Virus record (IMG/VR): IMGVR_UViG_3300014502_000024
Location: 1-30,863 of that record
Origin: a virus
Length of the DNA stretch: 30,863 nt
Direction: 5' to 3' (one strand)
Shown here: positions 13,266 to 30,632 of the stretch, piece after piece
How positions within the stretch are numbered: position 1 is the first letter of the stretch
Layout of the letters: each line of letters opens with the position of its first letter
Program-made: the position numbers and the translations under genes
Notes under the pieces: model-generated
Database searches by the model: none
What the model saw: only the letters and a program-made list of their open reading frames with translations
Told to the model about the DNA's origin: nothing

Positions 13266-15802
13266 TGGCCCGCAGAGCTACGTTCGGCCATCTTCCGGTG
13301 GCGCAGCCGGACATCAGCAGCACGCTGGTGTCGATTGCGCATGAGATGCAGTCGCAGAACGACTCGAACATCATGGATGCCTGGAAGAACGGCGGTGAGT
13401 TCCAAGGCCAACAGGCGACTGATGACGTCGTGCTGGCCTACTGGCAGAAGCGCATGGCGAAACTCGACGCGAAGGACCCGCTGTACGACACGTACAAAGA
13501 CCAAGTGATGCAGCTGCAATACGGCATCGAGCAGTCCAAGCAGGATTTGCTGCATGTCCAGGGTGCGATTGACGATACCCAGTATGCCCAGTTTTTCCTC
13601 AACTGGGCGCAGAAGGTGCCGCCGAACTCGGAGTTCTGGCGCGTGCTTCAGAAGGATGCGGCGCAGTTGATTGAGTCCGCCAAGCAGAAGTCTTCGGCGG
13701 GGGCGGAAGCGTCCAAGACGCGGTCCTTCAACGCGTTTGTTGCCGATCAGAACAAGACGATCAACGTCGGTTCTGCCCTGACCGACGCCATCACCCAAAT
13801 GTCGAAGGACACCGGACTGGGGATCGACAACAACGGTGACCAGATACTCACACTGCTGTCGCAGGACTACCAGGCCCATCCGGACAAGTACCGGGCGTTG
13901 AGTGATGCGCTCAGTGTTGCCGATCCTGGGTTTGCCGGAGATTTCTCACACGATTTCGTGGCGACGTGGATCAGCAATGCCGAGCAGGGCTACAGCAATG
14001 TGGCGACGCGCGCCAACGCTGACGGCTACACCTCGCAGTATTCTTCGGCCGCCAAGGGTCAGTCGGACATGTCGGCATGGGGGACCAACCTGAAGGTATG
14101 GCCCGTGGCGACGGCGTACGACAAGGCGTACACGCAGTTCGAGTCTGTTTGGAAAGACGCCAACGCCTCCGAGCAGGACAAGTACCAGGCTGCCCAGCGG
14201 TTTGCCGGAGTGTGTGGCACCCTTGCCGCGCAACCAGGGCTCGAAACGGCCTCCGCGAAGATGCTTCAGGCGGATCAGATGCGGGCCATGGGCTATGACG
14301 CGGGGGATAGCCCGTCGTTCGGCTCGGCGATGTTGGGCCATACAGGGATCACGACCGACATACAGGCGACGGTGGCGAATGCCGACATGGGGCAGCAGTT
14401 GATGAATCAGGCGCCGGATCAGTACGTCCTGGCGTCCAAGGACGCTAAGGGCCAGTTTGACCCGACAGGGCAGAGTCCGGTGGGTGTTGTGCTGAAGGCG
14501 TCCCTGCCGGCCGATGCGTTGGCGGTGGCCCAGCCTGGCCTGGACGGCTTGGCACACGCCATCTATGTCGAACCTCGGCCGGTCTACGTGGATGATCCGA
14601 ACAATCCCACCGGCAACCCGGTGGCGGTAGGGGCTTCTGTGACCTACGCGACAGGCGGCAAAACAACCACCCTGTACGGGTACCAGGACGGGAACGGAGT
14701 ACAGCAGTGGTCTCAGTCCTCGCCGTGGGTGGATACGGCGACGGCGACTGTGGATTCCAAGGGCAACTTGCATCTCCAGCTGCCGACCCAGACGCCGGAC
14801 GCTAATGCTGCTGCCATTGACGCTACGTTGCGCAAGGCAGGCTTTGCGGACGCCAATGTGGCTGGTGCGATCAAGGACACGCCGCCCAACGAGGCGGTGT
14901 CTGCCCTCTACTACAATCGAGACCCGCTCACGACGCAAGTTCTGGGGCGTGTAAACGTCACGTACAAGGACGGGACCTTTTCGGCGACTCAGACCTCGAT
15001 GACGTATGGCCCCGCTGGTCTCACGGACGGGACCACCAAGCCGCTTCAGTTGCCGGTCTACGGTGGTGTTGATACCGCCGAGGGATTGCGTCAGGCTGCC
15101 ATTGCTCCGTCTCGACTAGCGGTGGGTAGCATTCCGGGTGTGACCTTCAGCACTCCGGCTGAGGCGTCGGCTGCGACTGTCGCTGCGACGTCGTCTGGTG
15201 CTCAACTGGCTGCGCTCTACAAGGACCCAGCTTTCCAGCAGGAGTTTGTGCAGCAGACGATGAACTCTCTGGGGATTGTCGATCCTGCCGATCCGCAGAT
15301 TGCAACGAAGTGGAGTGCGTTGACCAATACGCCCGATCAAGCCTATCGGGATTACGCTGCGGGCAAGCGTACCTATAGTGGGCCTGGTGGCGAAAAGCCG
15401 GGTCTGACATACCCTGGATCGGTGCCGGACCTGAAGTACAATGGGGTGAATATCAGCATGGCGGGTCAACTGAAGGTGCCCTCTGTGCCGCAGATTGGGG
15501 TTACCACCCTCGATGAAAGCCGACGTACGGCGGTGCCGTTGGTTGCCCCAGTCCAGTCGCCGAGCGGTGGTCCGATGGGTGTGGCGGGGATCAGCCAACC
15601 GCCGACGCCAACTGTGATTCCAACTCCGACGCTGACCACTACCCCGTTGACGCCGGCACTGACGCCGCTTTCATCTTCGGTGCCGCCGACGCCGGCCATC
15701 ACCCAGATTCGCACTGTGACCCAGCCAGGTCAGTCGTCTCAGGACGTTTCGGTGAGCAGCCGACCGCCGTTGCCGAAGCAGCCGACTAGGCGGACCGTCT
15801 GA
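13265..15802 (+). CDS. Large virion-associated protein of unknown function (845 aa)
   Basis: The ATG overlaps the portal stop (TAATG). The N-terminal half is helical, rich in Gln and Ala (SIAHEMQSQNDSNIM, DQVMQLQYGIEQSKQDLLHV, AEASKTRSFNAFVADQNK). The middle (about 400-620) is beta-rich with repeated strands such as YVDDPNNPTGNPVAVGASV and TTLYGYQDGNGVQQW. The last 110 residues are Pro/Thr-rich (PPTPTVIPTPTLTTTPLTP). I recognise no catalytic motif. The position between portal and the giant gene, with the same coupled overlaps, suggests an internal head protein or ejected protein. That role is inference. Confidence 0.8.
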   Translation: MARRATFGHLPVAQPDISSTLVSIAHEMQSQNDSNIMDAWKNGGEFQGQQATDDVVLAYWQKRMAKLDAKDPLYDTYKDQVMQLQYGIEQSKQDLLHVQGAIDDTQYAQFFLNWAQKVPPNSEFWRVLQKDAAQLIESAKQKSSAGAEASKTRSFNAFVADQNKTINVGSALTDAITQMSKDTGLGIDNNGDQILTLLSQDYQAHPDKYRALSDALSVADPGFAGDFSHDFVATWISNAEQGYSNVATRANADGYTSQYSSAAKGQSDMSAWGTNLKVWPVATAYDKAYTQFESVWKDANASEQDKYQAAQRFAGVCGTLAAQPGLETASAKMLQADQMRAMGYDAGDSPSFGSAMLGHTGITTDIQATVANADMGQQLMNQAPDQYVLASKDAKGQFDPTGQSPVGVVLKASLPADALAVAQPGLDGLAHAIYVEPRPVYVDDPNNPTGNPVAVGASVTYATGGKTTTLYGYQDGNGVQQWSQSSPWVDTATATVDSKGNLHLQLPTQTPDANAAAIDATLRKAGFADANVAGAIKDTPPNEAVSALYYNRDPLTTQVLGRVNVTYKDGTFSATQTSMTYGPAGLTDGTTKPLQLPVYGGVDTAEGLRQAAIAPSRLAVGSIPGVTFSTPAEASAATVAATSSGAQLAALYKDPAFQQEFVQQTMNSLGIVDPADPQIATKWSALTNTPDQAYRDYAAGKRTYSGPGGEKPGLTYPGSVPDLKYNGVNISMAGQLKVPSVPQIGVTTLDESRRTAVPLVAPVQSPSGGPMGVAGISQPPTPTVIPTPTLTTTPLTPALTPLSSSVPPTPAITQIRTVTQPGQSSQDVSVSSRPPLPKQPTRRTV

Positions 15803-18800
15803 TGTTGAACATGCCAGGGTCCAAGCCTGGCTCGGGAGCTACACCCGCTCCGATTGGTACGGGTCAGCAGCCCGGGTTTAGCATGCCTGACATTCAGCCC
15901 GTGGCGCCGGCCGTCGATCCCGGTTCGCACCCCAACGAAGCTCCGTGGGATACCCTCGGGCGGGTGTTGTGGGGCTCGGGGTCTGAAGGCGGCACACTGG
16001 GACAGATACCTCTCGTTGGGGACGTTGCGCGCTTCCCCGGAGAGGTGGTGCGGAATGTAGCAGCGACGGGCTTGGGCGTGCCCGAGGTGATGAACGCTGC
16101 CTCGAACCTGCTCGGTAACCTTCCGTCCCCGGGTACGGACACTGGCAACGTCAAGAACGTAGCCGCCAACCAGTCGGCCAAGGGGATCAACCCGCTCGAT
16201 ACCAATCGATACCCCAAGACGCCGGACGGTGCGATGGCGTTCGTGACGGACATCCACAAGGAGAACATTGCGACCCAGTTTCAGTTGCTCGGGGAGTGGC
16301 AGAAGGTGAATGACCCGGAGGCGTATGCCGAGTGGCAGAAGACGCTGGCGGACGCCCAGAGCAAGATCGTTGAGTTCGGTCCTCTGGAGCTTCAAGCGAA
16401 GGCTGCCGAGACCCTGTCGAATTACGTGCGGCAGGAATCGGTCAGATACGCCGACACGACGACGGAGGGCGTGCAGGGTCTCTATGATATCGCCCCCGAA
16501 CTGGCGTTCGGCGGGGAGGGATCGCTGGGCCAGGGCTTCTCGGACGCCCTGACGCACCTCCTGATTCCCCAGCGCAAGGCTGAGGAGGGGCTGTCGTTCT
16601 TGTCGGGTCGCCAGGGTGGGTTGTTTCAGCCGTTGTACGACCTGTCGTCGGGTCTGCCCTCCAACTTGGGATCACGACTCAACAACCTGCTCTCGGTGCC
16701 GTTCGACAAACTGACTCCGGTTGAGCAGCAGGTTGTGACCGGCATGAAGGAACAGGGCTGGACGAACAAGCACGCCTACAACTTCCTGGTGTCTCACGGT
16801 CAGGGGTTCTCGTCTGACCCTGGTTCGGAACTCGCCATGTCGGTCTCTCTGGACCCGCTTCAGGTTGCGATGTTGGGTTCGTCGGCGGCGGCTGCTATCC
16901 CTGCCCGAATCGCTGGCATCACCAACGACGCTCGGTCAGCCAATCGGATCATGCGGACGATCCAGGAGGCGGCTGACGCCCTTGGAACGACCGTCTCGAA
17001 GGTTCGGGATGACCCGGTGATGGGGCCGAAGTTCCGGGTTGCCCGGCAGGTATTGAACTTCGGTATTCCGAGCGGTGGTCCGAGGGTGGCTGCGAAGCTC
17101 GACGCCACGGCGGCTGTTGGTATCGAGGGCTTCAGGCTGGGCATGGGGCCAACGGCAGTCAAGGACGCTGCGAGTCGTGCGGCTCGTCTTGACGTATCCA
17201 AGGAGGCTCTTGACACCGCAGAGGGCGTGTCGGCGATGAACAACGTACGCAAGTGGGGCATGGAACAACTGGTCAAGGAGGGGATGGGCAAGACCATCTT
17301 GCCGGGTGATGTCGTGTCGGAGGAGCAACTGCAATTCGCTTTGCACAACGCGGCGGCGGACACCAAGACGCGCATTGCTGAGTACACACAGAAGAACCGA
17401 GAGTTCTTCCTCACGCAGTCGGGCCAGGATGCGCTTGCTGAGCGCTTCGCGAAGTTCATTCAGCGTCCCATCGCCGAGGCCAAGACTGAGGTTGCGCAGA
17501 TGTCGCGCGACGAGCAGGCGTACTGGCATTACCTGACCTTCAGTCAGGCCGATTCGGCGTTCCGCAACGTAGTGTCGGGCATCGCTCCGGAAGCGTGGGG
17601 GAACTTCGCCAGCAAGGTCGGAGACCTGGCGCTCCTCAACCCGCAGGAGTTGGATCGGGTGGCGGCCCAGAACCTCGTATCGGCGATCCAGAAGGCTACG
17701 CCGGAGGAGGCGCTGCGTCTCTGGAATGAGGCGGCCGGCCAATACAGTCTCGTGGATAGCATTGGCCGTGTGACCACAGGCGGTACTCACATGCTGGACC
17801 GTCGGGTGAATCAGTTGCAGAATATCATCGAGCAAGGGCGTTTGCACTCCGCACTCGATGTCTCGGAGATGAAGTCGCTACCGGCCCAGTTCAAGCGTCA
17901 GTTCCTTGACGCTTGGGTGGACAGTGAGGGCAACCCGATCTGGCGCCTGGGCTTCAAGCCAACAACGGATCAGGCTACAGGACTGATGATGGATGCGGAC
18001 GGCAAGTTGACGATGGCCTACGCGCCAATGGTAGACAACGTTTCGGACGCGATCCCTCATCAAGTAGGTCGGGTGCGTATGCTAGTGGACCCACTGGGTC
18101 GGGCCATTCCGCAGGCCGTCAAGGATTCTCGATTGGCGAAGGCTGCCGGTCAGATGGGTGACGCGATGGAGGTGCTGCATCAGACCGCCATGGACCGCAT
18201 CTCCGGCGAGAGAATGATGGTGTCGATGGAGCAGTCGTTCCGCCGGCAGTTGCGGTCATACGAGGGTGCGGCCATCCCGGACTCAGTCGCCAAGCGTGTG
18301 TTCCGGCTCTCCCGGGAATACAGTCAGGACCACAGCTTCACCATTGCGGGCATGAGCCCCGACGATTTCTGGCGGGCTTCGGAGGCGGAACTGAAAGACC
18401 TTGTCGGCGCCAATGTCGGCAAGCGTGACATCTACACCATGCTGGCGAAGGCAGCTGGCGGGGACGTGCGCACGCTCGGTCTGTCCAGCTGGACAACGCA
18501 GCGCATTCGCTCCTCCTTGATCGCTCGGGGACTGGACCGCAACAACTACCTCGGGGCCGTGACGATCAAGCTCTACAACTCGTTGCGGTATGCCCTGAAC
18601 CCGTTGTTCTTCATTCAAGCTGAGTTCGACGCGCCGTGGTTCAATATGTATCGCGGCGTGATCCCGGACCTGTTGGGTCGTGCGCCGAAACCGGGCACAC
18701 CTGAAGCTGAGATGGCGAAGGTCATGCACACGATGGGGCACACAAGTCTGGCGCGTGATCTCCAGATGGACTTCACCGAGCGCATCACCAATATCGGCTG

Positions 18801-21783
18801 GCAGCGCGCTTTACAGGAGGAGCTTGCTTCGCTCCCCGGCTACGAGCGCAACCTTGGCGAGAAGTTCAAGCGCTGGTCGGGCCAAATGGTCATCAACAAC
18901 GAGTTGAAGTACATCAACTCGCAGGCGGGCCAGATGGTCTTCGATGCGCTGGGGACGGTGCGCAAGATGGTAGAGGACAAGATCGCCAACGCCGCTTCGG
19001 ACGCGGAGCGCGAGGTGTGGGTCAACGTGCGTCAGGATCAGGTGCCGATGCTCAGTTACTTGCGCGAGGAGGAGTCGAAGCGCCTGGGCCGGCTGGCAAC
19101 AGACAACGAGGTGGGCCTGCGGTACCTGACGGAGATTCTCGATGACGCAATGGCTGAGGACCGTACGCCGGAGGGGATGCTGAGCTATCAGAAGCAGTTT
19201 ACGAAGGCTGAGTACCACAAGCCGACCGACATCGGCGAGTTGCGCCCACTGGGGCTCGACGGTGGCGCCGCCTCTCTGGGCCTGCCGAATGTCAGTTCGG
19301 CCGCGACGCTGCGTGCGGCGCTCGGACGCGGGGCGTACACCCTTGGGGACGTATCCGACATGATGAAGACGCTGGGCTATCACCCCGACCACATCAAGCG
19401 TTTCACGACAGCCCTGATGTTCAACTGGCGCGACTACTTCGACGGTCTGGCGTCCGATCTGGGCATGACGCGGACTGAGATGCAGGGCGTCGAGACCATG
19501 ATCTTCAAGGCGGCCAAGCTCCAGAAGATGCCGGCCGTGGACTATCTCACCCAGGTTATGCCGATGACTACCGCCAAGGGCATTGACAGCGAGATGAAGT
19601 TCACGCTCGACGTGATGCGCGCCGCCAAGAAGGGTGAGGCCGGGATGGACCAGATGACCAAGCTGGTGACGGGCCACCTTCAGCCGTCGATGAAGGCGCG
19701 GCTGCTTGACCACTTCCTGGAGCGGATCACTGGCCCCAACGGGCTGATTGAGACGGCGATGGCGGCCGGCGACCATCAGACGGCCCAGAGCTTGAATCAA
19801 GTGGCCGAAGACCTAAGGGGTGGTTGGGGGCCGACTGCTGACAATCAGTTCCGTGACCTCGTGATTCGACGTGCCGGCGGCGAGACGGGTGTGGCTGGCG
19901 CTTCGGTGGCGGCTGTGCCGGAGGGGTTCACGACGAACGCCATGGAGATCAACGGGGGCCTGGCGTATCCCGCTGGTCTGAAGCGCGAGGGGTTCTTCCA
20001 CGCCACGACGAACATGCCAGCGGTGCTGCGAGATGGGCTGAAGTCGTCAGATGAACTGCCGGCCGGCACTCGCGGTCTTGGGTCGGCGGGCGACCGCAAC
20101 ATGATTGGTCGCACTCCGTTGGTGCAGGACCGTGCCGTGGCACAGGAGATGGCTGATCGTCTGAAGTTGACGTCTCAGATTGCGAAGGGCGAGGTCAACT
20201 ACGACCAGATGTTGGACGCTTTCCGACCGGCCTATAAGGAGGCTTTCGGGGACGGAGCCGAGGCTGAGATGCAGAAGGCGCTCGCCGCTCAGGCACCTGT
20301 TGATACTGTTGGTCTGGGGAAAGTCAGTGAAGCTACGACGGAACCCGGCTATGTGTATCACACGACCGGTGCAGACAATGCTACTGACATCTCGACGGAC
20401 AAGCTCCGGCCTCAATCGACTCGCTATCGTGACGAGCAGGCGGCATGGCCTGATGGCGGAACTGGTAAGCGCATTTACTGGAACCGTAACGCTAAGGCGG
20501 TCGAGAAGTTCCAGCCGGAAGGCAAGACGGCCATTCTGCGAGCCAGGGAGGCCGATGTTTCGGGATTGACTGATGAGCGGTATACAGGTGACAGCTTCTC
20601 CAATAAGGCTCTGTCACCCAACAAGCTCGAAGTTCTCGGAGGAGATGGTCAGTGGCATCCTCTGGATGAGTTCTATCGTGTCGCTGTCCCTACAGCAACT
20701 GACCCGAAGGAGATTTGGGCAGCCGCCCATCAGCTTGATAGTCAGCTGCCGGGCTTCAAACACGTCACTATGAACCCAGACTTCGAGACGGCTAAGAACT
20801 GGGTAACTGAGGACATCGGCGTGGTCAATGCGGCGGTCAAGAAGTCGTTTGGCCTGGACGTGAAAGAGGGGATGGACACAAGCAAGGGTGAGTTGGACTT
20901 CTTGACGAAGGACGTTCGGGTTCTTGCGCCAGGGGCCGTTCGGGAGATCGCCGAGCCCGAGGTGGAGCGCGCTGCCCGCTACTTCAGTCAGTGGATGCAG
21001 GAGGTCGGCCCGCAGTTCCAAGCCGGCGAGGTGCTGAAGGGGATCGCGCAGAACATCCCCAAAGATGGCGCGTCGCCATACGACTTCACGCAGGCGGCGA
21101 TGCTGCACGTGCTCTCGAACAACTTGCGTCTGACGGAGACGGACGCGTTCCGGCTCGCCAACATCAACCCACAGCGCACGGTGCTGGAGCGGTCGTTGAA
21201 CCACCCGTTCTTCGCGATGTACCCCAGTTCGTACTTCTGGGGCAAGGTGGTGCCGGAGACCATACGGTTCCTGGCCTACGAACCGTTCGGGATTCGCACT
21301 GGGGCGATGCTTGACCAATACTACAAGGTGCAGCAGAGCATCGCGCTTCAGTCGCAGTACGACCCGCGCATCAAAGACCTGTGGGACAAGGTCGGCAAGA
21401 GCGCCGTGATGGGGCTGCTGTCGTACATGTCGCCGTCTTTCCCGTGGGAGGACATGAAGTCCAGTCTGCCGCCGTGGGTGCGAGCTATGGCAAAGCATCA
21501 GGACTTCTCCACGATGCTCGACTCCGAGTACAACCTGTTCAACCCGAAGCGCTGGACGGATCGGTTCCTTGAAGCGGCCGGCGAAGCGGGCCAGGCGTAC
21601 TCGGCTGTCAACCCATTGACGTCGAAACAACAACAGCAGTTGCAGCAAGTGAGCGCAACGCCGAGTACGGCGACGCCGACACAGGCTGCACCTGACCTCA
21701 CACAACCGGTACAGGGAACTCAGTTGGGGCCGACTCTGGAGAGTCAGCTTCAGCAGTTGCAGCAAGTGTTGCGGAGCAGATGA
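15802..21783 (+). CDS. Giant internal virion / polyvalent-type protein with two ART-like segments
   Basis: A 1993-aa product whose ATG overlaps the previous stop (ATGA-type). It occupies the slot between portal and scaffold where MuF-type proteins and ejected effectors lie. The first 1390 residues are mostly helical with no motif I can name (for example YALNPLFFIQAEFDAPWFNM near 930-950). Residues 1394-1500 (EGFFHATTNMPAVLRDGLKS, then VQDRAVAQEMADRL) and 1514-1621 (GYVYHTTGADNATDI, KRIYWNRNAKAV, LSPNKLEVLGGDGQWHPL) both have the pattern of ADP-ribosyltransferase-like domains: an early His-x-T strand, a middle aromatic strand and, in the second, a late LEV strand. A further helical region (SLNHPFFAMYPSSYFWGKVV) and a Gln-rich tail follow. 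It is probably packaged and injected to act on host proteins early. The ART call is by pattern only. Confidence 0.8.
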   Translation: MLNMPGSKPGSGATPAPIGTGQQPGFSMPDIQPVAPAVDPGSHPNEAPWDTLGRVLWGSGSEGGTLGQIPLVGDVARFPGEVVRNVAATGLGVPEVMNAASNLLGNLPSPGTDTGNVKNVAANQSAKGINPLDTNRYPKTPDGAMAFVTDIHKENIATQFQLLGEWQKVNDPEAYAEWQKTLADAQSKIVEFGPLELQAKAAETLSNYVRQESVRYADTTTEGVQGLYDIAPELAFGGEGSLGQGFSDALTHLLIPQRKAEEGLSFLSGRQGGLFQPLYDLSSGLPSNLGSRLNNLLSVPFDKLTPVEQQVVTGMKEQGWTNKHAYNFLVSHGQGFSSDPGSELAMSVSLDPLQVAMLGSSAAAAIPARIAGITNDARSANRIMRTIQEAADALGTTVSKVRDDPVMGPKFRVARQVLNFGIPSGGPRVAAKLDATAAVGIEGFRLGMGPTAVKDAASRAARLDVSKEALDTAEGVSAMNNVRKWGMEQLVKEGMGKTILPGDVVSEEQLQFALHNAAADTKTRIAEYTQKNREFFLTQSGQDALAERFAKFIQRPIAEAKTEVAQMSRDEQAYWHYLTFSQADSAFRNVVSGIAPEAWGNFASKVGDLALLNPQELDRVAAQNLVSAIQKATPEEALRLWNEAAGQYSLVDSIGRVTTGGTHMLDRRVNQLQNIIEQGRLHSALDVSEMKSLPAQFKRQFLDAWVDSEGNPIWRLGFKPTTDQATGLMMDADGKLTMAYAPMVDNVSDAIPHQVGRVRMLVDPLGRAIPQAVKDSRLAKAAGQMGDAMEVLHQTAMDRISGERMMVSMEQSFRRQLRSYEGAAIPDSVAKRVFRLSREYSQDHSFTIAGMSPDDFWRASEAELKDLVGANVGKRDIYTMLAKAAGGDVRTLGLSSWTTQRIRSSLIARGLDRNNYLGAVTIKLYNSLRYALNPLFFIQAEFDAPWFNMYRGVIPDLLGRAPKPGTPEAEMAKVMHTMGHTSLARDLQMDFTERITNIGWQRALQEELASLPGYERNLGEKFKRWSGQMVINNELKYINSQAGQMVFDALGTVRKMVEDKIANAASDAEREVWVNVRQDQVPMLSYLREEESKRLGRLATDNEVGLRYLTEILDDAMAEDRTPEGMLSYQKQFTKAEYHKPTDIGELRPLGLDGGAASLGLPNVSSAATLRAALGRGAYTLGDVSDMMKTLGYHPDHIKRFTTALMFNWRDYFDGLASDLGMTRTEMQGVETMIFKAAKLQKMPAVDYLTQVMPMTTAKGIDSEMKFTLDVMRAAKKGEAGMDQMTKLVTGHLQPSMKARLLDHFLERITGPNGLIETAMAAGDHQTAQSLNQVAEDLRGGWGPTADNQFRDLVIRRAGGETGVAGASVAAVPEGFTTNAMEINGGLAYPAGLKREGFFHATTNMPAVLRDGLKSSDELPAGTRGLGSAGDRNMIGRTPLVQDRAVAQEMADRLKLTSQIAKGEVNYDQMLDAFRPAYKEAFGDGAEAEMQKALAAQAPVDTVGLGKVSEATTEPGYVYHTTGADNATDISTDKLRPQSTRYRDEQAAWPDGGTGKRIYWNRNAKAVEKFQPEGKTAILRAREADVSGLTDERYTGDSFSNKALSPNKLEVLGGDGQWHPLDEFYRVAVPTATDPKEIWAAAHQLDSQLPGFKHVTMNPDFETAKNWVTEDIGVVNAAVKKSFGLDVKEGMDTSKGELDFLTKDVRVLAPGAVREIAEPEVERAARYFSQWMQEVGPQFQAGEVLKGIAQNIPKDGASPYDFTQAAMLHVLSNNLRLTETDAFRLANINPQRTVLERSLNHPFFAMYPSSYFWGKVVPETIRFLAYEPFGIRTGAMLDQYYKVQQSIALQSQYDPRIKDLWDKVGKSAVMGLLSYMSPSFPWEDMKSSLPPWVRAMAKHQDFSTMLDSEYNLFNPKRWTDRFLEAAGEAGQAYSAVNPLTSKQQQQLQQVSATPSTATPTQAAPDLTQPVQGTQLGPTLESQLQQLQQVLRSR

Positions 21784-23501: not shown

Positions 23502-24410
23502 ATGGACCAGAACGAAGACATCGAGTACCGAAGCTACCTCCTGAACGACAAAGACGTTGCAGCCAATGCCGAGGCTGGCAGGGTGACCGGCTCGACGGTG
23601 GAGACGGTTGATTTCAGCGACGTAGACGTGGTTCAGTTCACAGAGAAGCGGTCCGAACAAGACGGTATGGATGCCGGCGATGTCTTCCTGGGGGCACGTC
23701 GAGTCAACATGACGGGTACCCTGTACGGCAAGACGCGAGCCCTGCTGTACGACGAGTACCGCGCCTGGTCGGCGGCGCTGAGTCCGGTGTTGGCCCAGAG
23801 GGAGAGTCCGGCCGACAAGGGCTTCCGGCCCCTCTATTTCAAGATGCCCACGGCCGACACGGTGAACTACCCCGACCTCCTGATTCCGCTCCAGGTCTTC
23901 GCGTTGCCGCGCGCCAAGAAGGTGACGTGGGCCAGGAAGCAGCAGGGCGGCAAGGATACCGACGCCCTGGCGATCCCGTGGGCTGCGACCCTGCTCCAGA
24001 AGGACCCCGGCATTTACGGTCGGGACGCCCAGAACTACGCCCTGACGGCAGGAGGCCAGATATTCGGCAACCTCGTCAATCGCGGAACGTACATCGCTCG
24101 TCCCAACATCATCGTCACGGTCGGTGCAACTGCCGGCGCCATTCTGTTGCAGATCGGTGGTTCTGCCATGACCATCAACGTGCCGGCCTCATCGGGCAAC
24201 CGGATCATTCGCTACAACGGTCAGGAGAAAGTGCTGACGGTCGAGGAGAACAATGCTGAGAATCCCCGGTTTGACATGCTGGACCTGGGGTCTTCCGAGG
24301 CGCATCCCGTTATCCCGCCGGGGACGTCGGCGTACGAGGTGGCCTTCTCAACGGGAGTAACCCCGCAGGTTGGAAGCCGTCTCTGGTTCTACGAGGCGGT
24401 GGCCGGCTGA
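23502..24410 (+). CDS. Distal tail (Dit-like) protein
   Basis: A 302-aa product from the leaderless-type ATG 23502. The early segment SDVDVVQFTEKRSEQDGMDA and the later GARRVNMTGTLYGKTRALLY match the N-terminal strands of siphovirus distal tail and related tail proteins. There a G-x-i-x-x-x-G-x-l strand pair precedes the RALLYDEYRAW helix. The C-terminal part (FGNLVNRGTYIARPNIIVTV, NRIIRYNGQEKVLTVEENNA) is a beta-sandwich as in Dit galectin-like domains. It would link the tail tube to the hub encoded downstream. The family call is by pattern. Another tail-tip protein is the alternative. Confidence 0.7.
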   Translation: MDQNEDIEYRSYLLNDKDVAANAEAGRVTGSTVETVDFSDVDVVQFTEKRSEQDGMDAGDVFLGARRVNMTGTLYGKTRALLYDEYRAWSAALSPVLAQRESPADKGFRPLYFKMPTADTVNYPDLLIPLQVFALPRAKKVTWARKQQGGKDTDALAIPWAATLLQKDPGIYGRDAQNYALTAGGQIFGNLVNRGTYIARPNIIVTVGATAGAILLQIGGSAMTINVPASSGNRIIRYNGQEKVLTVEENNAENPRFDMLDLGSSEAHPVIPPGTSAYEVAFSTGVTPQVGSRLWFYEAVAG

Positions 24411-24411
24411 G

Positions 24412-25851
24412 ATGATACCGCCGATCCTACACCGCGTTGCCATTGGCACGCCCCCGCCCGACGCTGAGCGCTGGTGGGCCAAGTTTGCCAAGCTCCACCC
24501 GACCTGGCAGCTGATTACCCACACTCCCGAGCCAGAGAAGTTCCCGCGCACCGCTCCTCTATGGCCGAAGTGCGCGAGCCTGGCGCAGCAGGCAGACTTC
24601 ATGCGGTATGAAGTCCTGGCCCGAGATGGTGGCGTGTACGTCGATTGGGACGTAGAGCCCTATCAGTCATTCGATCCCCTGCTCGGCCTGAAGGGTTTTG
24701 CGGGCTGCGAAGCGCCGGATCGCACCGGCAACGCCGTGATGGGATTCGAGCCAGGTCATCCTGCGGTGGAGGCAATCCTGACTGTGGCCGTCGCGGAACT
24801 GGAGAAGCCTCGGCCGGACGCGATGTCGATTGGTCCGTTGGCTGTTTCTCGGGTCTGTATGGGGCGCGACGACGTGCTGATCCTGCCCCCGGGAACGTTC
24901 TATCAGATGCCGTGGGAGGAGCGCCAGAAAGCGGAGGACGGGGGCTATGTGCGTCCGTGGGTGTACGCGGTACACCGCTGCCACCATTCCTGGGGCCTGC
25001 CGATTACGACTCGGCCGCCTCGGCAAGAGCCACAGCGAACGTCGCTGACCTGGCGACAGCGGCAGGGGTTGGACCCAGGCCCGGCCAAAGCGACCTCTGT
25101 TCCTCTCGGGAAGATCGGAGCCGTGATCCCGACACGGTTTCATCCGAAGCAGCTGGAACCGCTGTGCCAAGTGCTCAAAGAAGACGGCGTTGAGGTGATT
25201 GTTCAGGAGAGTGAGGACTTCGGCCACAACATCCACAAGATGTGGAACGATGGCGTGGCTCGACTGCGGGCGGCCGGCTGTACCGTCGTCGCGATTCTCA
25301 ATGACGACATCGAGATGGCGCCAGGCACGCTGGCGTTCATGGAGAAGGCTCTGCGTGCTACTCCGAAGACGGGCGTGATCTGCTGCGACACGTCGCCCGG
25401 CCGACTTCGGATCAAGTCCAGGCAACGACCCCAGGTCCCCGACCGCATTCGGGTATCGCTATCCATGAAGGGCACCAACATCAACCAGGAGGGCTTCGCC
25501 TTTCTGTACGACCCAACAGACCCCGACGTGCCGATCTTCGATGAGACCTACCATATCTGGCACGGCGACATCAAGTTCTTCGACACCCTACGGTACCGGG
25601 GTCGCGCGGTCGGCACGGCGATGGGCCTGGTGATTGTCCACGAGACGAGTCACTCCACCAAGCGCGTGCTGAAGACGGACAACATCTGGGGCGATCTGAA
25701 CGAACAAGTAGCTGCTGGGAATGCCGACGCGATTCCGTTCCTGGAGGATGTACAGAGAGCCCATCTGGAGCGTTACCCGGAGGAAGTCCGAACACCTCAG
25801 AACGACGTGATCGACGCAGTAGCAGTTGCGTCAGCCCCATCGAGCGCCTAG
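24412..25851 (+). CDS. Two-domain glycosyltransferase in the tail module
   Basis: A 479-aa product whose ATG follows the previous stop by one base. The N-terminal domain begins IPPILHRVAIGTPPPDAERW and includes ADFMRYEVLARDGGVYVDWD, with Asp78-x-Asp80. This is the sugar-binding DXD pattern of the Gly_transf_sug (OCH1-like) family. The second domain begins near residue 240 (IGAVIPTRFHPKQLEPLCQV) and has VVAILNDDIEM (Asp298, Asp299), the GT-A family 2 DXD-like motif, plus a late IWHGDIKFFDTLRYRGRA. Two sugar transferases in one protein imply a disaccharide addition or two linked steps. Likely targets are the phage's own tail or capsid, or host surface glycans. The target is not shown by sequence. 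Confidence 0.85.
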   Translation: MIPPILHRVAIGTPPPDAERWWAKFAKLHPTWQLITHTPEPEKFPRTAPLWPKCASLAQQADFMRYEVLARDGGVYVDWDVEPYQSFDPLLGLKGFAGCEAPDRTGNAVMGFEPGHPAVEAILTVAVAELEKPRPDAMSIGPLAVSRVCMGRDDVLILPPGTFYQMPWEERQKAEDGGYVRPWVYAVHRCHHSWGLPITTRPPRQEPQRTSLTWRQRQGLDPGPAKATSVPLGKIGAVIPTRFHPKQLEPLCQVLKEDGVEVIVQESEDFGHNIHKMWNDGVARLRAAGCTVVAILNDDIEMAPGTLAFMEKALRATPKTGVICCDTSPGRLRIKSRQRPQVPDRIRVSLSMKGTNINQEGFAFLYDPTDPDVPIFDETYHIWHGDIKFFDTLRYRGRAVGTAMGLVIVHETSHSTKRVLKTDNIWGDLNEQVAAGNADAIPFLEDVQRAHLERYPEEVRTPQNDVIDAVAVASAPSSA

Positions 25852-25860: not shown

Positions 25861-26541
25861 ATGGCGACGACCTACTCGCAACTGCAAACCAAGCTCGCCC
25901 GCGTGCTGTCGGACCCGGACAAGACTACGTTCCAGGCAGACACACTGAAGGACATGATCGCTGCGGCGTGGGCAGACGTCAGCGACATCACGCCGATGCG
26001 GTTCACCGAAGACATCACGCCCATCGCCGACACGTCGTCATACTTGCTGCTAGGAGACGTCTTCGGTGGTCCGGTGGATGATGTTTCTGTCGTGAACGTC
26101 GAACTGTGGCGGGGGGTGCCGACGAAGAAAGCCTGGCAACAGCTGGAGCCGATGTCGAAGCATCCGACCGGGCTGACCTACTCGCAGGCAGGGTGGTACT
26201 TCTGGGCCGGCTACTTGATGCTGCCAGACCGCTACATGGACCTGATCGACCCGGCGCGGGACATGATCCGGGTCCGTGGATACTGCCCGTGGCCGCCGGT
26301 CTCTGGCGACAATGACTACCTGCCGTTTGGCGCCCAAGTGGAGGAAGACATCATCCTGGTCTGTCGGATCGAGGCTCTGCGACGGCTGACCGGCAGCCGT
26401 GCGTTGTTTACACAGTGGCAGACGCGGACGAACAACACTGACGTCTCGATGGCTTCCCTGGACAGCAATCTCTCCGTGGCCATCCAGGAGTGGATGCGCA
26501 AGAGCAACCGCCACCGCATTATCCGAGAGGCACCTGGGTGA
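25861..26541 (+). CDS. Head-tail connector-like protein
   Basis: A 226-aa product from ATG 25861. The N-terminus (YSQLQTKLARVLSDPDKTTF, then LKDMIAAAWADVSDITPMRF) is the two-helix opening usual in head-completion and connector proteins of the gp6 type. The middle is beta-rich with a tail-like strand (LIDPARDMIRVRGYCPWPPV). A helix (EEDIILVCRIEALRRLTGSR) and a basic C-terminus (EWMRKSNRHRIIREAPG) follow. It probably joins the portal to the tail. It lies unusually far downstream, after a tail protein and a glycosyltransferase, rather than next to the capsid gene. The call is by pattern. Confidence 0.65.
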   Translation: MATTYSQLQTKLARVLSDPDKTTFQADTLKDMIAAAWADVSDITPMRFTEDITPIADTSSYLLLGDVFGGPVDDVSVVNVELWRGVPTKKAWQQLEPMSKHPTGLTYSQAGWYFWAGYLMLPDRYMDLIDPARDMIRVRGYCPWPPVSGDNDYLPFGAQVEEDIILVCRIEALRRLTGSRALFTQWQTRTNNTDVSMASLDSNLSVAIQEWMRKSNRHRIIREAPG

Positions 26542-29500
26542 GCCAGACCAAGGTTTGGTCTGCGAGTCGAAGCACGGTTGTCGTCTACGCGCCGGGCCTT
26601 CAGGCAGGCTGCGGCGGCAACACCCGTCTGTGCGCGGGGCATGGGGGCGCCGACCGACCCTACGTTTATCAGTCGTTCGTGGACTTCGATGCGGACTGGC
26701 TCGATGTGGGCAAGGTCGTCAGTGCCATCCTGACCTTGACGACGGACAATGGTGGGGGCCAGCAGATGTCGGGCGCCATATCGGCCCACCCGACGATCTC
26801 CGCTCGGCGCCTGACGAGTGCCTTTGTTCAGGGGGCGAGCGCCGACGATGTGTTCGTAGGGGACGACTGGACCGACCCCTCCTATTCCACGACGGACATG
26901 GTTGGCGCCACTCCAGAGCGGGTAGCCGGCGGGCTGGTCAACATCGACGTCACCGCCATGGTGCGGGCTTGGGCGCCGGCTTCGGTGCTCGGTGGCGGGC
27001 AGGCACCCAACTATGGCATCGGCATCTACGGCACCATCGATCCCGACACGCGGTGGACGGGATGGAGTGCTGAGGCCGCCGAGGGGTTGCGCCCGTATCT
27101 GACGGTGACCTACGAACTGGGGCCGACCAAGCCAAACGTGCCGACCAACCTTACCCCTGTTGGCGATACGGCAGTCGTCTCGGCGTTCGAGGGCGACTTC
27201 AGTGACGTCAAGGAAGGGGACACCATCGCCAGGATCGAAGTCGCCGTTTACACAGACGTCGCCGAGGCGACGCCGCTCGGTGTGCTGCCGTACGATGAGA
27301 ACATTCGTCTACTGGACTCGAACGATCTGGCAGTGGTGCCAACCCAGCACGTGTACGCCCTTGGTGACGCCGTCGCCATCCCGGGGCACAGCGAGGTGGG
27401 TGAAGACACCAGCCCGGCTCATGTAGTGACCCAGGACGGCCGCGAGCTATATCTCCTGGACCGTAATTTCACGGAGGCATGGTCATCTCCGGTTCCAGCG
27501 CAAATCGCGGTGTTGGACCTGGACCCCAACATCCGACTGATTACTTCGGGTCCTGTGCCCGATCTCCCGGTGGTTCCTGCCCATCGCACCTACTTGCTGG
27601 GTGCGGCTGTCACCATCGCTGGGCACAGTGTCATCGGGGAGAGCACCAGTCCTGCGCATGAGGTGGTACAGGACGGCCAAACCCTGTACGTCTTGGATCG
27701 CAACTTCACCCTGTCGCAGCCGGTAGCCGTACTACTGCACGACCCCGGTATCCGTCTGCTGACTGCGGGCGACACCGCCGTGCTGCCCACTCACCGAACC
27801 TACAGTCTGGGTCCGGCGATCACCGTGCCGGGCCACAGCGTCACCGGAGAGGCGACAAGCCCGGCCCACATCGTCAATCAGGACGGCCAGGACTTGTACC
27901 TGCTGGACCGCAACTTCATTGCCTCGCCGACGAACATGCTGGTGTGGAACACGTCCCGGATCGCGTCCGACACCGAGAAGGTGACGGCTCACTTCAGTGT
28001 CGTACCGGAGAACCTGACTCTAACGGCGGACACGACCTACAAGTGGCAGGCGAGGTACTACGATCAGGAGGGAGAAGTCTCCGAGTGGACTGCCCTGATG
28101 GCGGTCAAGGTGACCTGTCCGACCCTGAGCGCGCCCGTCATTGCCCCATACGAGGCTACCCTTGACACCCTGGCCGGTGTCGTCTTCAAGGGAGATCAGC
28201 AGGTAGGCAGCGACTACGATCTTCAGGCGTATCAGATCGAGATGGCGCTCTACAACCAGATCGTGACCGATGCGCACTGGAAGACGCTGCCGCTCAGCTG
28301 GTGGGCCAACGACCATACGGAGGAGTTCAACGCGGAGCCGGCGGACTGGAAGCTGGTTGGCTTTGACGATAGCGCCTGGAGTCCGGCGGAAGTGGTTACG
28401 CATCCCTGGTGGCCGGTCATTCTTGCAGGCCCGTCCTGGCTGTGCGACAGGACGATCTATTCGACCCCTGCTCTCCTCTCCGCAATCTACTTGGCCCGAA
28501 CCGAGTTCAGCATCGGCAGCCTGCCGTCGTCTCCTGTGACCCTGCAGTACGGGGCCGACAACGCCTTGGAGATATGGCTGAACGGGGTGCTCGTGGCGTC
28601 AACAGCCATCAACGGTAACGCCCCAGTCGAGATCAACCCGTCTGCCTTTGTTGAGGGCATCAACAGTCTGGCGATCCGAACGATCAACGGACCCAACGAC
28701 CACGATTATGAGAACATCTGGGCTGGCGGGTACGCCTCTGACCCGACAGGCTTCTGGGCTATGCTCGACCTAGCGAATGGCGCTAGCCCCTGGCCTGAAG
28801 ACATGGGGGAGGCTGCCCCAGCTACCGTGTGGAACACGGGCAAGAAGTTCCTGCCGGGTGGTTCCAAGTCCTGGGCCACCCTGTACGGGGGAAAGGCTTG
28901 CGTGGCCGGGAAGTATTCGCTGCGCATGCGGTATTGGGCTAAGCCGGGTTGCGAGGCTCCGTGGGCCTACACCTATCTGATCCTGACTCACGACTTCAAC
29001 CCGGGCAGCAGTGACGACGAGTCCCGCATTCAGCTGACACCGCATTCGCCCTGGCGCATTCGGATCATGGAAATGGATCGAGTGAACGGTCGAGGCCCGG
29101 GCAAGATCATCGCGCAGTTCGAGCATCCCAAGAGTGTCGGTGCGAGCCTCGTGTTCAATAGCGGAGGGGAGGCCCACTTCACGTTGCCAGTAGACGATCC
29201 ACAGGTCTCTCTGATCGAGCCCCGGCAGGTTCACTACGCCATCGACTTCTACGACAACGATGGCTGGCGCGAGGTGTTCGCCGGGTTGATCTGGGATTAC
29301 GACGCCGATCAGAACTCAGCTGTGTTCCAGGGCATCGACTACCTGGCTCTCGCCAACACTGTCGTGGACGAGCGCTATGATCCCAGCGACATCGACAAGA
29401 CCTATGCCAACGGTGGCTCCAAGTACACGGACATGACGATCCACGACATCATCGTGAACCAGATAGATCGAGCCATCGGCCTGACGGATAGCCCCGTGGG

Positions 29501-30632
29501 CTTCATCACCCGGGGTCCTATCGCCGAGATGAATGAGCGGGTGACGATCTACAGCACGATGAAGCACCTGATCGACCTCTCGACGGGTCTCATCGACAGT
29601 CACCGACAGGGTACTGGAAAGCAGACGCGTGTTGAGGTCAGGCGCAATTCGGACGGCACCTATTCCTTCGTCGTGACGGACAACCCCGGGGTCGTGCGCG
29701 ACAACCTGCGGTTGAGGTACGGCGAACTGGTGCAGGGCTACCGGGTCATCCCGTTTGGCAAGCAGTGGATGTCCGTGATGCATATGATCGGCCGCTCCAT
29801 AGACGGCCTGAAGGTGCGCTACAAGACGGTGTCGGCGCCCGGCATAGACCAGTCGGTGTGGGGACGCATTTCCCAGGTCCAGTTGGTGGATAACGTTGAG
29901 GACGAGAACGATCTGGAGCGTCGGGCCAGGGAAGCAGCCCTTCAATACAGCAAACTCGGGAGGAGCATGGGGCTGGCGCTTCGGTCTGGCATGCTCTCAC
30001 CGCGCAGTGGCTACGATATCTGCGATCAGTTCCCGGTCAGCATCAAGCATGGCATCGTTGATACCTCCCGGTTCGGGTCCGGCTATTGGGCCGCAATGGC
30101 TATCGCCTGGGAGGCCAGCGATGACGGCAACCAGAACACCGTTCTGACCCTGCTGCCGCGCGAAGACACCACAGCACCCAGTAATGATCTGATCGGGTCT
30201 CAGCCCTTCAGCACGCAGAAGGAGTGGCAGGTTGGCTGGGGTGATCCCGAGATATTCTTCCAGCCTGGCGTGCCCACAGCCACGAACTACCTCGATCAGT
30301 CTACGGGAACGACCTGGACCCAGCAGATCAGTTATACCCCTGACGGACACGGGGGTTTCACTCAGACAATCACATACGTGCCGGTCAACGAGGGTCATGC
30401 CCATACGCACGTCTGGGGAGAGTCTCCTGCGGGCAACATCAACGGCACCAACGCCGTCTTTACCCTGGCTCACACGCCATCGCCGGCCACGTCGTTGCTG
30501 CTATTCCGGGACGGTCTCTTGATGAGGGTCGGTGCCGGGAACGACTTTACACTGGCAGCCAACGTGGTAACATTCGAGACAGGCAATGAGCCCGGTCCAG
30601 ATGCGAGTCTGGTGGCAAGCTACACGACGTAG
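26538..30632 (+). CDS. Giant tail hub / minor tail protein with interrupted FN3 domains
   Basis: A 1364-aa product from GTG 26538, overlapping the previous stop (GTGA). In order: a CBM96/DNRLRE-like beta domain (residues 1-198, FVDFDADWLDVGKVVSAILT, ending YLTVTY). Next is an FN3-like domain (about 202-525) cut after TDVAEATP by three tandem repeats (249-311, 325-390, 398-460, each ending LDRNF) and resumed at TNMLVWNTSR. A second FN3-like unit (about 532-805) is cut by a galactose-binding-like jelly roll (about 580-755, with ADNALEIWLNGV). A hub domain follows (about 836-1260, GREVFAGLIWDYD-like strands and FQGIDYLALANTVV). The C-terminal beta tail begins with EGHAHTHVWGE. It likely forms the tail tip and binds host glycans. 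Confidence 0.85.
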   Translation: MSQTKVWSASRSTVVVYAPGLQAGCGGNTRLCAGHGGADRPYVYQSFVDFDADWLDVGKVVSAILTLTTDNGGGQQMSGAISAHPTISARRLTSAFVQGASADDVFVGDDWTDPSYSTTDMVGATPERVAGGLVNIDVTAMVRAWAPASVLGGGQAPNYGIGIYGTIDPDTRWTGWSAEAAEGLRPYLTVTYELGPTKPNVPTNLTPVGDTAVVSAFEGDFSDVKEGDTIARIEVAVYTDVAEATPLGVLPYDENIRLLDSNDLAVVPTQHVYALGDAVAIPGHSEVGEDTSPAHVVTQDGRELYLLDRNFTEAWSSPVPAQIAVLDLDPNIRLITSGPVPDLPVVPAHRTYLLGAAVTIAGHSVIGESTSPAHEVVQDGQTLYVLDRNFTLSQPVAVLLHDPGIRLLTAGDTAVLPTHRTYSLGPAITVPGHSVTGEATSPAHIVNQDGQDLYLLDRNFIASPTNMLVWNTSRIASDTEKVTAHFSVVPENLTLTADTTYKWQARYYDQEGEVSEWTALMAVKVTCPTLSAPVIAPYEATLDTLAGVVFKGDQQVGSDYDLQAYQIEMALYNQIVTDAHWKTLPLSWWANDHTEEFNAEPADWKLVGFDDSAWSPAEVVTHPWWPVILAGPSWLCDRTIYSTPALLSAIYLARTEFSIGSLPSSPVTLQYGADNALEIWLNGVLVASTAINGNAPVEINPSAFVEGINSLAIRTINGPNDHDYENIWAGGYASDPTGFWAMLDLANGASPWPEDMGEAAPATVWNTGKKFLPGGSKSWATLYGGKACVAGKYSLRMRYWAKPGCEAPWAYTYLILTHDFNPGSSDDESRIQLTPHSPWRIRIMEMDRVNGRGPGKIIAQFEHPKSVGASLVFNSGGEAHFTLPVDDPQVSLIEPRQVHYAIDFYDNDGWREVFAGLIWDYDADQNSAVFQGIDYLALANTVVDERYDPSDIDKTYANGGSKYTDMTIHDIIVNQIDRAIGLTDSPVGFITRGPIAEMNERVTIYSTMKHLIDLSTGLIDSHRQGTGKQTRVEVRRNSDGTYSFVVTDNPGVVRDNLRLRYGELVQGYRVIPFGKQWMSVMHMIGRSIDGLKVRYKTVSAPGIDQSVWGRISQVQLVDNVEDENDLERRAREAALQYSKLGRSMGLALRSGMLSPRSGYDICDQFPVSIKHGIVDTSRFGSGYWAAMAIAWEASDDGNQNTVLTLLPREDTTAPSNDLIGSQPFSTQKEWQVGWGDPEIFFQPGVPTATNYLDQSTGTTWTQQISYTPDGHGGFTQTITYVPVNEGHAHTHVWGESPAGNINGTNAVFTLAHTPSPATSLLLFRDGLLMRVGAGNDFTLAANVVTFETGNEPGPDASLVASYTT

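Follow-up and report, generated by a model that had tools for sequence, protein, structure and literature searches.

A tandem array of repeats in a loop of an FN3-like domain of a probable phage tail protein

In lactococcal skunaviruses, insertion of carbohydrate-binding domains into the evolved Dit protein (evoDit) restores adsorption to, and infection of, exopolysaccharide-bearing lactococci; some phages carry one such domain and others two, and the long form contains internal insertions while its termini align with the short form (PMC10688798). CrAss-like phages carry tandem BACON repeats in tail-associated proteins, the copy number of which varies among phages, partly by duplication (PMC6949934). 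The hubs of lambda (gpJ) and T5 (pb3) contain FNIII domains, and whole beta-sandwich or FNIII domains are nested there between strands of other domains (PMC10721106). In the K1F endosialidase, the beta-barrel (PF12195) is a sialic-acid binding site (PMC12632334).

The phage protein described here shares features with each of these systems. As in evoDit, an internal insertion is absent from relatives whose sequences align on both of its sides, and the type of insert differs among phages. In contrast to evoDit, where inserts occur in one or two copies, the insert is present in three copies, the carrier belongs to a different protein and is FN3-like, and the repeats match no known carbohydrate-binding family; no match of the protein to Dit families was found in Pfam or PHROGs. 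Like the BACON arrays, the repeats are tandem, probably tail-associated and predicted to be beta-domains, and copy number varies among phages, but Pfam does not identify them as BACON domains, and they sit inside a loop of another domain instead of forming a free chain. The arrangement also recalls gpJ and pb3 in that a domain is inserted between strands of another; there, however, FNIII is itself inserted or lies at a terminus, whereas in the present protein the FN3 domain receives the insert. Only the single module of L028, one of the relatives, resembles the endosialidase beta-barrel, and weakly so; the repeats themselves do not match it.

The protein and its three repeats

The stretch analysed (the window) is a whole IMG/VR virus record of 30,863 bases, with genes for a terminase, a portal, a major head protein, and several tail-like proteins. 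The annotated head proteins resembling those of this phage include proteins of Streptomyces podophages. The last ORF of the record (1364 codons) starts with a GTG at 26538, which overlaps the stop codon of the upstream gene and fits the residue numbers given in an earlier note on this DNA. Its parts are:

26538..30632, + strand: ORF of a multi-domain probable tail protein, 1364 aa; relatives lie in the same gene order
26538..27119, + strand: N-terminal domain, residues 1-194; conserved in relatives, no Pfam match
27120..27275, + strand: first half of FN3-1, residues 195-246, strands A-B-C (model strands 9-14, 22-26, and 36-46, pLDDT 65-78; alignment)
27276..27479, + strand: repeat R1, residues 247-314 (pairwise alignment, profile)
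27510..27716, + strand: repeat R2, residues 325-393 (pairwise alignment, profile)
27720..27926, + strand: repeat R3, residues 395-463 (pairwise alignment, profile)
27930..28121, + strand: second half of FN3-1, residues 465-528, strands C'-E-F-G (model strands 272-281, 291-294, 305-315, and 327-331, pLDDT about 74-85; weak Ig_Rha78A_N match)
28122..28262, + strand: first half of FN3-2, about residues 529-575 (model strands 345-348, 355-359, and 368-377; alignment)
28263..28808, + strand: second insert, in FN3-2, about 180 residues (about 576-757), galactose-binding-like (alignment; weak matches)
28821..28997, + strand: second half of FN3-2, about residues 762-820 (model strands 569-572 to 616-622, pLDDT about 71-85; alignment)
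29043..30209, + strand: conserved C-terminal domain (51-58% identical to that of relatives)

The presence of three tandem repeats in this ORF, claimed in the earlier note, was borne out. The repeats are ~68 residues long, and 60-67% of the residues are identical between copies (39-44 of 64-66 aligned residues per pair); pairwise alignment scores were between 192 and 212, ~4 times that of the best shuffle (maximum of 55, 2000 shuffles per pair). A profile built from R1-R3 matched at R1-R3 and nowhere else in the record (E-values of 1e-41 to 1e-44). The motifs that had been named are present with small variations: THRTY.LG reads TQHVYALG in R1, AHRTYLLG in R2, and THRTYSLG in R3, and both GHS..GE.TSPAH and LDRNF are kept. 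DNA identity between copies is about 61-65%, that of third codon positions is 34-45%, and dN is about 0.30-0.36 versus a dS of about 1.5-2.5 (NG86). The repeats are constrained coding sequence under purifying selection. The low third-codon identity, together with a dN well below dS, indicates that the duplications are old and that the array is not an assembly artefact. A search for direct repeats at the DNA level did not reveal the array, as expected from the age of the duplications.

The protein had also been labeled a tail hub, which is plausible. Judging by its position, the C-terminal domain may be hub-like; an 11-sequence profile had no match in the PDB and none of note in Pfam or NCBIfam, and matches in PHROGs were scattered and to single members. 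The last 140 residues (30210-30629) are without clear counterpart in the closest relatives and weakly match a Methylophilales phage tail fibre (tblastn, E=0.1). Within the tail-gene region, a 493-residue glycosyltransferase-like ORF (24370-25851; Gly_transf_sug, E=2.9e-8) is found in none of 20 related records. Between the portal and the scaffold/head genes lies an ORF of 1993 residues (15802-21783) which is related to a 2316-residue ORF in G023, and the sole firm match of which is phrog_3147, of unknown function.

The insertion site in relatives and in the structural model

Direct searches did not lead to relatives of the window protein: tblastn against 50,697 phage records gave nothing at E 1e-5 and, with the limit raised to E 10, no more than matches at chance level, and scans of IMG/VR and GTDB with short peptides of the window protein by itself were equally negative. 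The route to relatives was a terminase search (16 IMG/VR loci, with the protein in two of those records), followed by a whole-record search and by alignment scans of IMG/VR, after which 10 relatives (L026-L035) were at hand. A GTDB scan with the alignment yielded nothing.

The insertion site is located between a strand of the 'EVxVYDxG' type and the strand which, in the window, reads TNMLVWNTS. In four of the 10 relatives (L027, L033, L034, and L035), it holds only a short loop, and the FN3-like domain is uninterrupted; in the other six (L026 and L028-L032), it holds one module of ~65 residues and of the 'HGL..G..V.F' type. Three repeats at this site occur in the window only. The FN3-1 block comprises 132-133 residues in the empty-site relatives versus 346 in the window, which is thus ~214 residues longer at the site, and both flanks of the window sequence align with the empty form. 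The earlier note had proposed that the strand ending in TDVAEATP resumes at TNMLVW once the repeats are removed; these segments correspond to residues 239-246 and to the residues from 465 onward, beyond the repeats, and the comparison with relatives agrees with this proposal. Copy number at the site does vary among relatives (zero, one, or three), but the single module is apparently unrelated to the window repeats. On a tree of the C-terminal domain, in which the window is weakly placed, on a short branch, the states of the site need at least three changes.

An AlphaFold2 model of residues 195-830, made with seven sequences, contained three strands before the insert and four after it (pLDDT about 65-85 on both sides), which together is the strand count of one FN3 domain, while the insert itself had a pLDDT below 50. 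The model is read here by strand count. Its best Foldseek matches were mostly receptors with tandem FN3 domains, at low TM-scores, as most of the model is unfolded. Ig_Rha78A_N of Pfam matched window residues 468-523 below the cut-off (E=0.003) and the protein of L029 above it (E=4.5e-8). The flanks shared with the empty-site relatives and the strand count of the model make an array inserted into the loop of one FN3-like domain a well-supported reading. That there is no split FN3 domain, and that complete small domains follow each other in series, is compatible with the poor pLDDT of the modeled insert; with an uninterrupted, alignable domain in four relatives and too few strands in either half to make an FN3 domain on its own, such an arrangement is very improbable.

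The second FN3-like domain of the window is interrupted as well. In the model, ~180 extra residues follow strand 368-377, with three strands of FN3-2 before them and the rest after. Because each insert follows three strands of its FN3 domain, the two inserts occupy equivalent loops of successive domains. The second insert is absent from all 10 relatives. It weakly resembles the galactose-binding-like part of alpha-L-rhamnosidase-type proteins (PF08531, Bac_rhamnosid_N, E=0.042; tblastn to a Nonomuraea ORF of the rhamnosidase type, E=1e-3).

Identity and mobility of the inserted modules

The HGL-type module is not restricted to the FN3-1 site. It also occurs within a loop of the C-terminal domain (L032, L033, and L035), and L033 carries it in a C-terminal extension as well; its recurrence at a second and a third site indicates that it moves between sites of the same protein gene. 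The module of L028 weakly matches the endosialidase beta-barrel family (PF12195, E=0.0023), and endosialidase 4hiz was the second PDB match of the HGL-module profile (E=0.56). Matches to Enterotoxin_a (one relative's module, E=0.029), Invasin_D3, and AbfS_sensor were taken as chance. The identity of the module is uncoupled from that of the C-terminal domain: L029 and L030 are 86% identical in the C-terminal domain versus 43% in the module, while the outlier L032 (C-terminal domain 51-54% identical to the others) has a module identity of 39-53%, which matches that of pairs within the close group. Module exchange between phages is suggested by these values, short of proof, since the FN3-1 flanks also diverge fast and weak constraint across the whole region may be at work instead.

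The window repeats themselves have no Pfam match, with no known carbohydrate-binding family (CBM) detectable, no match of note in a PDB sequence search, and no phage or plasmid relative found. Patterns derived from the repeat profile revealed no relative of the repeats in IMG/VR; a scan with GHS..GE.TSPAH yielded none either, and one with the DG..LY.LDRNF-type pattern yielded two, of which one may be related. On another contig, a phage ORF of peptidase-like type (L047:682-2023) ends with DGRTVYLLDRNFTLA, nearly the last motif of the repeat. Related phages encode, at L050-L054 (loci in G017, G019, G020, G021, and G023), a conserved protein whose C-terminal domain is SH3_3-like, the match of the G023 protein (E=5e-5) being under the family cut-off. 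When R3 was modeled with AlphaFold2 (together with R1 and R2), an all-beta fold with six strands was predicted (pLDDT 65), which is perhaps SH3b-like.

Whether the repeats derive from a known kind of module was considered in two ways. They could be remote, triplicated descendants of the HGL-type module, given that both occupy the same site with ~65 residues per unit and that short motifs occur in similar order when inspected by eye. Yet hhalign found no match between the two, and an HMM of ten HGL modules, run without filters, listed no match to the window protein even at an E-value limit of 1000, so that descent from this module is distinctly unlikely. Alternatively, the three repeats could be divergent bacterial SH3 (SH3b) cell-wall-binding domains. 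Their layout, NIR..(L)..LG..V.I.G...(Y/H).V..DG...Y.LDRNF, resembles that of SH3b by eye, an SH3_3-like domain is present in the protein of related phages mentioned above, the R3 model has a six-stranded all-beta character, and among its viral Foldseek matches the one listed with the highest probability is an amidase (prob 0.66, TM 0.55); the peptidase-like phage ORF of G025 ends in a similar domain, but that match was chosen by motif and is significant over the last 17-19 residues only. Moreover, the repeats match neither SH3_3 nor related Pfam profiles, profile-profile comparison with the SH3b-like domains of related phages was no better than with shuffled columns, and the Foldseek E-values of the R3 model were about 0.3 or worse, that is, not significant. 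The repeats are therefore unlikely to be SH3b domains, although this reading deserves more weight than descent from the HGL-type module and is kept as a lead.

Possible role of the inserted modules

The results are best explained by an array inserted into the C-C' loop of FN3-1, the guests being displayed and most likely binding a host polymer; this explanation as a whole is considered probable, with an appreciable margin for error. The C-C' loop tolerates insertion: other phages of the group leave it empty or fit it with a single module, and the window has there a different module, in three copies that arose by old duplications. The loop thus looks like a socket for exchangeable domains at the virion surface, which would work much as the carbohydrate-binding inserts of evoDit do and may help to choose the host. 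The FN3 carrier would stay folded and hold the inserted domains out at the virion surface, where they could bring new affinity for a host surface polymer or alter an existing one, presumably by glycan binding, and three copies could add avidity or reach. An effect of the array on host range, which the earlier note had considered plausible, would follow from such binding.

It could also be that the repeats are structural, acting as spacers or as beta-domains by which the tail tip is stiffened, lengthened, or glued, and that they confer no receptor specificity. In line with such a role, all three copies are under strong purifying selection and retain GHS..GE.TSPAH and LDRNF; for many phage Ig-like domains, no binding role is known. 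However, four relatives have nothing at the site and six have an unrelated module there, which means that no particular insert is needed for assembly. A purely structural role is thus considered unlikely, if by no means negligible, and binding of a host polymer by the displayed guests is preferred.

A more far-reaching reading is that the FN3 C-C' loop is a standing socket in this phage group: two successive FN3 domains would take unrelated guests, singly or arrayed, the guests would be exchanged more freely than the carrier, and the guest in the window would represent a family without described relatives. This is put forward tentatively, as we lean slightly against it. The analysis has also yielded a small family of conserved domains that lacks annotated relatives, together with a natural series at one loop (empty, one guest, and three guests) and a second filled socket in the next domain. 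With this series it can be tested which tail FN3 loop accepts cargo, and whether more copies change adsorption.
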